Positions 16,630-19,682 of a stretch of DNA of 64,000 bases are shown here, one piece after another. This DNA is from Tessaracoccus coleopterorum. Its GTDB lineage: Bacteria; Actinomycetota; Actinomycetes; Propionibacteriales; Propionibacteriaceae. The position numbers and the translations under genes were made by a program. The first letter of the stretch is position 1. Each line of letters begins with the position of its first letter. The stretch covers positions 930,001-994,000 of the forward strand of contig NZ_JAANIJ010000001.1 in NCBI RefSeq assembly GCF_011174705.1, read 5' to 3'. The notes under the pieces were generated by a model that was not told the DNA's origin, did no database searches, and saw only the letters and a program-made list of their open reading frames with translations.

Positions 16630-18409
16630 ATGGGACACCCGATCGAGGACTATGCGCTGCTCAGCAACTGCCGCACCGCGGCCCTCGTCTCACGCAACGG
16701 CGACCTCGACTGGCTCTGCCTGCCGCGCTTCGACTCCGGTTCCATCTTCGGTGCGCTGCTCGGCGACGAGCGGCACGGACGCTGGTCGCTGCGCCCGGCC
16801 GACCCACACGCCCGGATGGAGCGAAGCTACGACGGCGACACGTTCGTCCTCGTCAACCGTTGGACCACCCCGACCGGCGAGGCCGAGGTCATCGAAGCCA
16901 TGCCGATCGGCCACGACACGGCCGTGGTGCGACGCGTCCGGGGCGTCAGCGGCAGGGTGGAGTTCGAGTGCCACGTCCGCCTGCGCTTCGACTACGCCCG
17001 CGCCATCCCGTGGGTGCGCCAGACGGGTACCCACGACGAGCCCTGCCTGCGCGCCATCGCGGGCCCCGACGCCATCGACCTGCGCGGAGTTCGTCTGCAG
17101 GGCCACGGCCACCGGCACAGCACCAGGTTCACGGTGGAGGCCGGCGCCGTCCGCGACCTGACCCTCACCTGGCAACGGTCGCACCTGGACGGGACCCCAC
17201 CCCGCGACGTGGACGCCGACCTCGCGTCGACCCGCCGTTGGTGGCAGGACTGGAGCGACAAGACCGAGCACGACGGCCCGGAGCACGCCCTGGTGACCCG
17301 ATCGCTGCTGGTGCTGCGCGCCCTCACCGACGAGCGGACGGGCGGCGTCGCGGCGGCGGCCACCACGTCGCTCCCGGAGGCGATCGGAGGCGAACGCAAC
17401 TGGGACTACCGCTACGTGTGGCTGCGCGACGCCGCCCTCACGCTCGAGGCGTTGATCGCCCACGGGTTCATCGACATCGCCCACCACTGGCGCGACTGGC
17501 TGCTCCGCGCAGTCGCCGGCGACGCCGCGCAACTGCAGATCATGTACGGGCTGGCCGGGGAGCGCGACCTGCCGGAGCGGATCCTCACCAGCCTGCCCGG
17601 CTACGAGGGCTCCTCCCCGTGCGGATCGGCAACGGCGCCGTCGACCAGTTCCAGGCCGACGTCATCGGCGAGGTCCTCGTCGCGCTGGACGCGGCGCGGG
17701 TGGCGGGCCTCGGTGAGGACAGGTTCTCCTGGTCGCTCCAGCAGGCCCTGGTCGAGCAGGCCATCGAGCGGATCGACATGCCCGACCAGGGCATGTGGGA
17801 GGTGCGCGACGAGCCGGAGATGTTCACGCACTCGAGGGTGATGGTGTGGGCCGCCCTCGACTGCGCCGTCCGGGCGGTGCGGACCCACGGGTTGCCGGGC
17901 GACGTGTCGCGCTGGGAGTCGTTTCGCGACCACATGCGCCGCGAGATCGAGGCCAACGGCTACGACGCGGAGCGCGGGCACTTCGTCCAGCACTACGGAA
18001 CCACCGCTGTGGACGGTGCGCTCCTGTTGCTGCCCCAGGTCGGGTTCTGCGCGGCCGACGACCCCCGGATGGTCGCGACGGTGGCGGAGATCGAGCGCAG
18101 GCTGCTGGTCGACGGCTTCGTGATGCGTTACAGCACCGACGACGGAGTCGCGGGCGGCGAGAACGCCTTCCTGGCGTGCACCTTCTGGCTCGTCGAGCAG
18201 TACGCGATGGTGGGCCGCCTCGACGACGCCACCGCCCTGATGGAGCGGGCGTGCGCGACCGCCAACGACCTCGGCCTGCTCAGCGAGGAGTACGACCCGG
18301 CTGCCGCCAGGCAGACCGGCAACTTCCCCAGGCGTTCTCCCACCTGGCACTGGTGCGGGCCGCCGACGCCATCGGAGGCCACGGCGGCCGGGCGACCCAC
18401 CGAAGGTGA
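16630..18409 (+). CDS. Glycoside hydrolase family 15 (glucoamylase/trehalase-like), frameshifted
   Basis: Starts MGHPIEDYALLSNCRTAALV, the conserved beginning of bacterial GH15 proteins (MxxxIEDYALIGDCRTAALV). Key motifs are GGERNWDYRYVWLRDAALTL (substrate site), MWEVRDEPEMFTHSRVMVW and the C-terminal SEEYDPAARRQTGNFPQAFSHLAL. Two breaks, near 17616 and 18330, are each repaired by one C (SSPVRIGNGAVDQF and NFPQAFSHL). Repaired length is about 594 residues, normal for the cytoplasmic trehalase/glucoamylase branch. No signal peptide. Alpha,alpha-trehalase is a reasonable guess, as in mycobacterial homologues, but substrate cannot be fixed from sequence. Confidence 0.85.
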
Positions 18410-18440
18410 GCCACCCGTCCTTCCGTCATCCCGCTACCCC

Positions 18441-18780
18441 GACCCCGCAGGTAGTGGCCGAAAGTTCCAACCAGACCGACCAGAACCGGCCACTGGCCGA
18501 TTTTGCGAGGACACCCCACCGATCCGACCCCGCAGGTAGTGGCCGAAAGTTCCAACCAGACCGACCAGAACCGGCCACTGGCCGATTTTTCGAGGGCGCC
18601 CCACCGACCCGACCCCGCAGGTAGTGGCCGAAAGTTCCAACCAGACCGACCAGAACCGGCCACTGGCCGATTTTGAGAGGGCACCCCACCGACCCGACCC
18701 CGCAGGTAGTGGCCGAAAGTTCCAACCAGACCGACCAGAACCGGCCACTGGCCGATTTTTCGAGGGCGCCCCACCGATGT
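18441..18780. repeat. Four tandem 85-bp repeats between convergent genes
   Basis: Units begin at 18441, 18526, 18611 and 18696, an exact 85-bp period. The first 64 bases of each unit are identical in all four copies; the last 21 differ at a few positions (ttttgcgagga, tttttcgaggg, ttttgagaggg, tttttcgaggg). Inside each unit agtggccg and cggccact form an 8-bp inverted repeat about 26 bases apart, with gttc/gaac able to pair inside it. The 3' arm also forms a short hairpin (cggcc-act-ggccg) followed by atttt, like a mini-terminator. The period is not a multiple of three, so it is unlikely to be coding. It fills most of the 409-bp gap between the GH15 gene and the htdX-like gene. Confidence 0.9.
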
Positions 18781-18818: not shown

Positions 18819-19682
18819 TCAGTGCGGGGTGAGCTCACCGACCAGGTGCGGCTTCCCGTCCTTGTTCACCACCGAGAACCGACGGAGGTCGCCGTCGACC
18901 TCGGTGGCGAACCACACCTTGCCCGGCAGCAGGACCGGCTTGGCGAACTGCACCCGCACCGTGTAGGCGGCAGGCAGCCGGCCGGAGAGTGCCGCGAGGG
19001 AGCGGGCGTGCACCCACATGCCGTGCGCGATCGCCCTCGGAAAGCCGAACATCCTTGCCGTCACGGGAGACAGGTGGATCGGGTTGGCATCCTCGGACAC
19101 CTTGGCGTACTGACGGCCGAGGTCGGCCGGCAGCCGCCACAGCTGCGACGGCGCGGCCGTCGGGGCGGCGAGGTGTTCGGCCTTCACCGGCTCTCCCCCA
19201 CCCCCTTCGCCCCGATCGACAGGTAGTTCGACACCCCCTCCCACACGATCTCGTCGCCGACGTGGATCTGACCGCGCATGTCGAACGAGACCCCTTGGGA
19301 TGCGGGCTCAGGTTCTCCGCGCACACCCTCATCCGCAGCCGCTCCCCACGGTGACGCGGCGGTGCAGCGTCATGGTGTTGCTGACGTGCACGAGGCCGGC
19401 CAGCGACATCGGGAAGTCGTCCTCGGCCATCATGGCCGCCTGCAGCGGGAAGGTCTGTACGTGCAACCAGGTGGCAGGCACCTCGTCGCGCAGCGTGAAG
19501 CCGCACACCCGGTCGTAGGCGGCGAGCCAGGTCAGGTCCTGCTTCTGGTCCATCAGCAGGTAGCTGCGGTCGGGCAGCGCGCCCACCTTCATGCCCCTCT
19601 TCCGGAACGACCCGACCAGGCCCTTCAGCAGCACCTTCTTCGCGTCGGGCGGCGCCGACAGCGAACGGACATCGCGACCCAT
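18819..19682 (-). CDS. MaoC-family (R)-hydroxyacyl dehydratase, HtdX-like, frameshifted
   Basis: Double-hotdog type dehydratase acting on 3-hydroxyacyl-thioesters. It starts MGRDVRSLSAPPDAKKVLLKG at 19682, one base after the fabG4-like stop. The C-terminal hotdog has the catalytic pattern YAKVSEDANPIHLSPVTARM and FPRAIAHGMWVHAR (Asp/His of the R-hydratase motif D-x4-H and the following HG). Breaks near 19345, 19295 and 19200 are each repaired by one G, for example VTVGERLRMRVCAENLSPHP. Repaired length is about 288 residues, matching mycobacterial HtdX (Rv0241c). Position directly after fabG4 and fadA2 homologues strengthens the call. Confidence 0.82.

Follow-up and report, generated by a model that had tools for sequence, protein, structure and literature searches.

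Four tandem repeats in Tessaracoccus coleopterorum form one stack of a dispersed, REP-like palindromic element whose same-strand copies keep helical phase

The window analysed here, a stretch of 64,000 bp from the genome of Tessaracoccus coleopterorum, carries at positions 18438-18777 (plus strand) a tandem array of four 85-bp units, each made up of a short element, hereafter element E, and a 25-bp spacer, as judged from Tandem Repeats Finder (TRF) and from a comparison of units and spacers. The array (period 85, 4.0 copies, 95% matches, score 631) heads the 9 TRF rows of the window. It takes up most of the non-coding gap between two convergent genes, where the initial annotation had placed it. 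The left neighbour is a GH15 glycoside hydrolase gene on the plus strand (16630-18409; Pfam PF00723 and PF19291 on 16630-17841, codon scan and the ends of open reading frames, ORFs), and the right neighbour is a MaoC-like dehydratase gene on the minus strand, of which the 3' part was delimited (18819-19244; Pfam PF01575 and the ORF list). The GH15 gene is split over reading frames in the assembly and its exact end is uncertain, at about 18340-18409. Several other genes between 15000 and 22000 are split over frames as well, and the assembly, which consists of 2 contigs and 3.59 Mb, is yet rated 60.9% complete, which suggests indel errors. The classification of the array as one stack of an interspersed palindromic element of Tessaracoccus, resembling the repetitive extragenic palindromic (REP) sequences, is well supported, and the evidence for it and for what might lie behind it is given below.

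Counted from 18441, columns 1-64 of the unit are the same in all four copies, while 7 of the last 21 differ (65, 66, 71, 73, 83, 84 and 85). The description of four 85-bp repeats with 64 identical leading bases thus holds; the drift that had been ascribed to the last 21 bases is real, but modest, and the conserved part is essentially element E itself. A search model of the element (R1) places the four copies at 18451-18508 (61.6 bits), 18536-18593 (62.0 bits), 18621-18676 (60.3 bits) and 18706-18763 (62.0 bits), all on the plus strand. The core of about 58 bp consists of box A, a loop with a near-invariant GAC, box B, and box C with a run of T residues. In copy 1, box A is AGTGGCCG (18453-18460), box B is CGGCCACT (18487-18494) and box C with its T-run is GGCCGATTTT (18495-18504). 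Two hairpins can be drawn, as had been proposed: a long one in which AGTGGCCG pairs with CGGCCACT, and a short one, CGGCC-ACT-GGCCG (18487-18499) followed by T residues, so that 18487-18494 is an arm common to both. In the genome as a whole the majority core reads CAGTGGCCGATA-n-TTTCAGC-n-GGACCGAYCAGAATCGGCYACTGGCCGATTTTTCC, from 93 of the 109 cores compared, namely those with no indel and few mismatches. Over six species the GAC of the loop, an AA, CCA-TG and CGATTTT are near-invariant and the adjacent columns far more variable, and these conserved letters look like the mark of sequence recognition.

Element E is not confined to this locus. BLAST with the 85-bp unit gave 82 matches in the window's own genome (G000), where the copies form about fifty clusters. 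Among the 39 Tessaracoccus genomes of the genus set, model R1 found at least 117 copies in G000, at least 130 in G010, 31 in G011, 20 in G015, 37 in G020 and 40 in G045, all lower bounds, with at most 140-150 candidates scored per genome; it found no match in the other 33. A degenerate 22-letter pattern added a seventh genome (G007, 15 matches) that the model had missed, and in 32 of the 39 genomes the element was found by neither means. The same pattern gave no match in the 159 genomes of the family set (198 in all) that lie outside the genus, nor did the reversed pattern used as a control; the pattern is narrow, finding a single copy each in G000 and G015, so that absence here means absence of close forms. 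In a contig set of 84,980 species, which may leave out records of the window's own genome, an exact pattern gave 45 stretches, of which 42 come from Tessaracoccus bendigoensis and one from T. caeni; the remaining two, from Hymenobacter and from Alkalihalobacillus, are taken for chance matches. On a one-gene tree of the 39 genomes the presence of E requires 5 changes, against a mean of 6.6 for shuffled states (23 of 500 shuffles as low), a distribution that is patchy and clustered only weakly. The copies sit in non-coding DNA: considering the first three units of each array, none reaches the codon-usage score of 9 used for coding, and those of the window score 0.7-2.4. Five short-read contigs of G010 (C23, C26, C107, C129 and C155) start within about 45 bp of a copy, which indicates that the assembly breaks at E and that the true copy number is likely above the count. 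The initial annotation had called for a search of the genome and its relatives, and the answer is a unit dispersed in its own genome and patchy in its genus. Of the three natures it had offered for the array, the mobile non-coding element fits best as far as dispersal and patchiness go; mobility itself we infer. A phage or plasmid origin was rejected, since one exact pattern found no stretch in viral contigs and blastn against phages and plasmids gave no match.

The distances between neighbouring copies on the same strand are not arbitrary. They cluster at 73-74, 83-85, 94, 104, 114-117 and 126-127 bp, that is, at multiples of 10.5 bp. For 62 spacer-distinct spacings from five species the phase coherence at this period was R(10.5)=0.599 (Rayleigh p=2.2e-10), 10.5 was the best period in a scan from 5 to 25, and jittering each distance by +-6 bp reached the observed phasing in 0 of 5000 trials. 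The phasing recurs within species (G000, n=25, p=8e-4; G010, n=22, p=1.4e-4; G045, n=6, p=0.025), including the small sets of G015 (n=4) and G020 (n=5), with p=0.05 each; for the G010 list without collapsing by spacer, 37 spacings under 150 bp gave R=0.78. Equal distances are found with differing spacers, such as eight at 94 bp in G010, and single stacks can hold different spacers of about ladder length (84 and 84 at locus L152; 95, 94 and 98 at locus L167). Stacked copies thus keep helical phase whatever their spacer, and this persistence across unrelated spacers and several species points to a protein in simultaneous contact with two copies.

Orientation is likewise constrained. Where neighbouring copies lie on opposite strands and no more than 1 kb apart, the C boxes face outward in 26 pairs and inward in 2 (14:2 for G000 and G010, 12:0 for G020 and G045); when four pairs shared by G020 and G045 are counted once, the ratio is 22:2 (p=4e-5). 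In the G010 list the gap is 34-36 bp in 8 of the 10 outward pairs, and four such middles that were read (L062, L063, L093 and L104, from T. bendigoensis) are unrelated to one another, a fixed gap with no conserved middle. The genes that lie between some outward pairs are ordinary-looking by eye. At one locus of G045 (L159, 5183-6520) a gene between copies of E resembles by eye an IS481-type integrase, and the matching stretch of G020 (L151) has no such gene. Local duplication, finally, has left its trace in part of the arrays. Recurrence of a spacer in the flanks is a mark of tandem duplication, and it is seen in 10 of 75 arrays, with 80% or more of the first spacer found again on the left, on the right or split once between them. 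The array of the window is among the ten, its first spacer recurring at 92%, and has the appearance of a stack that expanded by duplication between its two convergent neighbours; a relative, G041 (see below), has a convergent junction of this kind with no E detected. Head-to-tail stacking, which is frequent, has in these ten arrays evidently come about by duplication of E together with flanking DNA.

From these observations we consider it probable, at roughly 0.6, that E is a REP-like, non-autonomous mobile repeat and that a putative DNA-binding protein engages two of its copies together, on the same side of the helix. On this view the repeat would be spreading, or would once have spread, non-autonomously, and the protein, a putative transposase or host factor, would recognise a specific sequence. 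Such engagement could either set the site of the next copy or let only in-phase copies persist. A bolder version, which we put forward tentatively and would not expect to hold, makes E the recognition site of a mobile-repeat system that is independent of the REP-associated tyrosine transposases (RAYTs) and has a helical ruler: a complex on one copy would direct the duplication or insertion of the next, whole helical turns away, on the same strand or outward and almost never inward, so that phased stacks could arise from unrelated flanking DNA.

Several results weigh against a mobile element held by a two-copy protein. The REP transposase domain Y1_Tnp (PF01797) was found in 0 of the 39 genus genomes and in 5 of 14 control genomes, and no clear candidate family recurs beside E. 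The fetched stretches contain 207 ORFs at 800 bp or less from a copy; the most widespread cluster among them, a single one, reached four of the seven species, and the two clusters found in three species resemble, by eye, ribosomal protein L1 and an ABC ATPase. Nor was a candidate autonomous partner, of the kind that miniature inverted-repeat transposable elements have, recognised among these ORFs. Genes with a DUF222 domain, considered further below, occur in 37 of the 39 genomes, element-free ones included, and the element-rich G010 has two matches, the better at E=1.5e-7. Duplication left no trace in the flanks of 65 of the 75 arrays. The phasing test covered spacings under about 155 bp, and among four longer ones in G010 one (191) lies near the ladder and three (226, 245 and 246) lie off it; a cruder anchor with fewer usable copies gave a weaker phase (n=52, R=0.44, p=3.9e-5, jitter 1 of 5000). 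The unrelatedness of spacers is defined by a similarity cut-off, and some arrays may share a descent that is no longer visible. Lastly, in G000 genes are closer to the C side of arrays than to the A side (medians 60 and 210 bp, p=1e-6, n=47), a bias that was absent in G010 (n=26, p=0.26) and G015 (n=7, p=0.61).

Part of this would be expected if the copies were dead relics, mobile long ago and now multiplied by slippage or unequal crossing-over, with the phasing as a physical bias of that process and not the work of a protein now using E. This explanation accommodates the want of a candidate transposase, the likeness of all spacers in 20 of the 29 stacks listed with at least three copies (a few of them listed twice), and the sites of E that are common to the sister species G020 and G045. 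It does not account for core letters that stay near-invariant while adjacent columns vary, and slippage leaves unexplained the outward pairs, with their 34-36 bp gaps and unrelated middles. We regard it as the strongest of the alternatives to a protein-engaged mobile repeat, if a fairly unlikely one.

A different view would make E a chromosome-organising site, stacks of which are bound by a host nucleoid protein or a topoisomerase. Gyrase binds REP clusters, and the helical phase, the palindromic boxes and the non-coding placement of E are what such a role might predict. The bacterial interspersed mosaic elements (BIMEs) built from REP sequences are reported (PMC6907758) as possible barriers to the diffusion of supercoils in E. 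coli, and the passages there that mention a helical turn concern DNA topology. An element that is present in quantity or wholly missing within one genus, with none found in 32 of 39 genomes, is nonetheless ill-suited to a housekeeping function, and we think this role improbable.

The initial annotation had also likened the two hairpins to an attenuator and suggested, as one option, a terminator cluster for the convergent genes. On such a reading the short hairpin with its T-run would end transcription, the long one would prevent this, and the array would separate the convergent genes. There is something to be said for this. A terminator scan passed the short hairpin and T-run of copies 2 and 4, two sites against 0.7 in shuffles (sd 1.0). 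For unit 1 alone, RNA folding favours the long hairpin (-25.9 kcal/mol, z -2.5). The short one forms in an isolated piece of 33 nt (-11.4, z -3.5), with a single one of 200 shuffles folding as well or better; the fold was not unusual for the stretch around copy 4 (z -0.8) or for the minus strand of unit 1 (z -0.9). In an alignment of 39 of the 49 non-redundant G000 copies with 5 from G015, the long stem (columns 4-11 with 38-45) has 88.4% of its cells paired and the short stem 91.5%, and sliding one arm by 1-3 columns lowers this to 52.3% or less, as complementary arms must. The tail GATTTTT is kept by the last copy of G000 stacks, in element direction, in 17 of 30 cases and by earlier copies in 15 of 58, although copies within a stack are not independent. 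In stacks such as L026, L034, L035, L041, L046 and L048 the variants GATTCT or CCCATT occur in earlier copies.

Covariation lends neither stem support. Column shuffles of the same alignment matched the real pairing in 394 of 500 trials for the long stem and 500 of 500 for the short, giving no compensatory signal, and pair 38-50 fails in 20 of its 44 copies. Among the 188 of 230 copies from six species that have a recognisable box A (the two of G007 were lost), shuffling partners within species reached the observed pairing in 800 of 1000 trials for the long stem (10 pairs) and in 1000 of 1000 for the short, and shuffling across species did so in 8 and in 37 of 1000, which is what relatedness by itself would produce. 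Changes of G-U type on the plus strand were dropped as a sign of RNA in view of the opposite mismatch in G010 copies. Gene orientation gives no support either. Of 80 arrays with both flanks readable (47 in G000, 26 in G010, 7 in G015; 27 of the 53 G010 arrays lacked a readable flank and were left out), the flanking genes are convergent for 24, divergent for 26 and co-directional for 30, and in 41 the neighbour at the 5' end of E is transcribed towards it, a chance level; these counts do not differ from 25% and 50%. In one genome, G041, the only one of 23 other MaoC-bearing genomes with a convergent GH15 match in the fetched locus, the two matches lie 99 bp apart, as against 488 bp in the window, with no E detected; its GH15 match (55% identity, E=6e-9) is a candidate orthologue only. 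An intrinsic terminator should combine a T-run, which is present, with stem covariation and placement at sense 3' ends, neither of which was seen. Because covariation is lacking and gene orientation is at chance, attenuation and termination are set low and seem to us improbable too, and the proposals of a terminator cluster and of attenuator-like hairpins are not supported. The further suggestion of a processed small-RNA array found no support either: a known RNA family was rejected for want of any Rfam match at gathering scores in the window, and a promoter scan found none, where none was expected either.

A gene might also have carried the element along. Of 12 DUF222 places in the window's own genome, six lie 293-591 bp from a copy of E and none of the others comes within 13 kb of one, which would suit an element belonging to a mobile DUF222-HNH (13E12-like) gene unit. 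Four of the six nearby genes are near-identical (82-92% over 1.4-1.9 kb), and each is immediately followed by an E array (L039, L041, L046 and L048, near 1.46, 1.64, 2.24 and 2.32 Mb). The HNH part was read by eye, Pfam giving DUF222 only. These four segments are copies of one unit, duplicated with its gene and its repeats together, so that hitch-hiking may suffice as an explanation; they were also all that stood out, among the longest matches listed, when long non-coding stretches were compared all against all by BLAST for a larger shared element. Because of the genomic distribution given above, DUF222 as the driver is set low, and we hold it to be very unlikely. A neutral variable number tandem repeat (VNTR) of the window locus only, which the clean tandem period might suggest, is refuted by the more than 100 dispersed copies, the BLAST matches of the unit alone having sufficed for its rejection.

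Among known systems, the REP sequences and BIMEs are the closest kind, being short imperfect palindromes in many non-coding copies, as E is, and E may work in a like manner. PMC3733652 describes REP families without a transposase, with inverted dimers whose spacers are alike in length and differ in sequence and with tandem clusters that include flanking DNA, CGTC families likewise without a dedicated transposase, and a mention of REP-like families without tags in M. tuberculosis. The E core differs from these by a third, half-palindromic box A, and whole-turn spacing of direct copies was not found in the available part of that paper. Nor does E belong to the GTAG super-family, as it has no family-wide GTAG tag: on the minus strand, 14 of 78 G000 copies have GTAG immediately ahead of a CCGAT-N4-ATCGG mini-stem, and among 110 copies from five other species there is none that has it. 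Those 14 copies look like minimal GTAG REP sequences. In the CGTC super-family the tag adjoins a stem of 8-9 bp with a loop of 4-5 nt. The minus strand of E has a CGTC at some position in 32 of 58 G010 and 9 of 78 G000 copies, by eye not beside the stem of boxes B and C.

With the REP doublets forming hairpins (REPINs), E shares inverted palindrome pairs, preferred neighbour distances and tandem clusters of near-identical units with flanking sequence (PMC3116915). The distances preferred there between next neighbours are single values (71, 110 and 184 bp), whereas those of E form a ladder of 10.5-bp steps. The outward pairs and their gaps are REPIN-like, but the Y1/RAYT domain is missing from all 39 genomes, so that E is not a member and a RAYT-driven REP was rejected. 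What is new here is the spacing of same-strand copies with unrelated spacers at multiples of 10.5 bp. The word "helical" is absent from the texts of PMC3733652 and PMC3116915, the former has no word beginning "actinobacteri", and keyword searches gave no literature on REPIN/RAYT in Actinobacteria or on such repeats in Tessaracoccus.

The mycobacterial interspersed repetitive units (MIRUs) and VNTRs are actinobacterial, intergenic, tandem and dispersed repeats. Their unit length is similar to that of E, with which we compare them by description and not by sequence; palindromic boxes and helical phase are features of E. How REP-like elements multiply and stack without a transposase is an open question, posed for the CGTC elements in PMC3733652. 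The idea of a protein that holds two copies could be tested by simple binding assays, the genus being in culture. One minor likeness may be recorded. A tRNA-Ser(cga) gene (L045, 3328-3413) carries letters 13-25 of the 85-bp unit exactly, from box A and beyond; it lies about 110 bp from a copy of E, and the likeness is probably due to chance.
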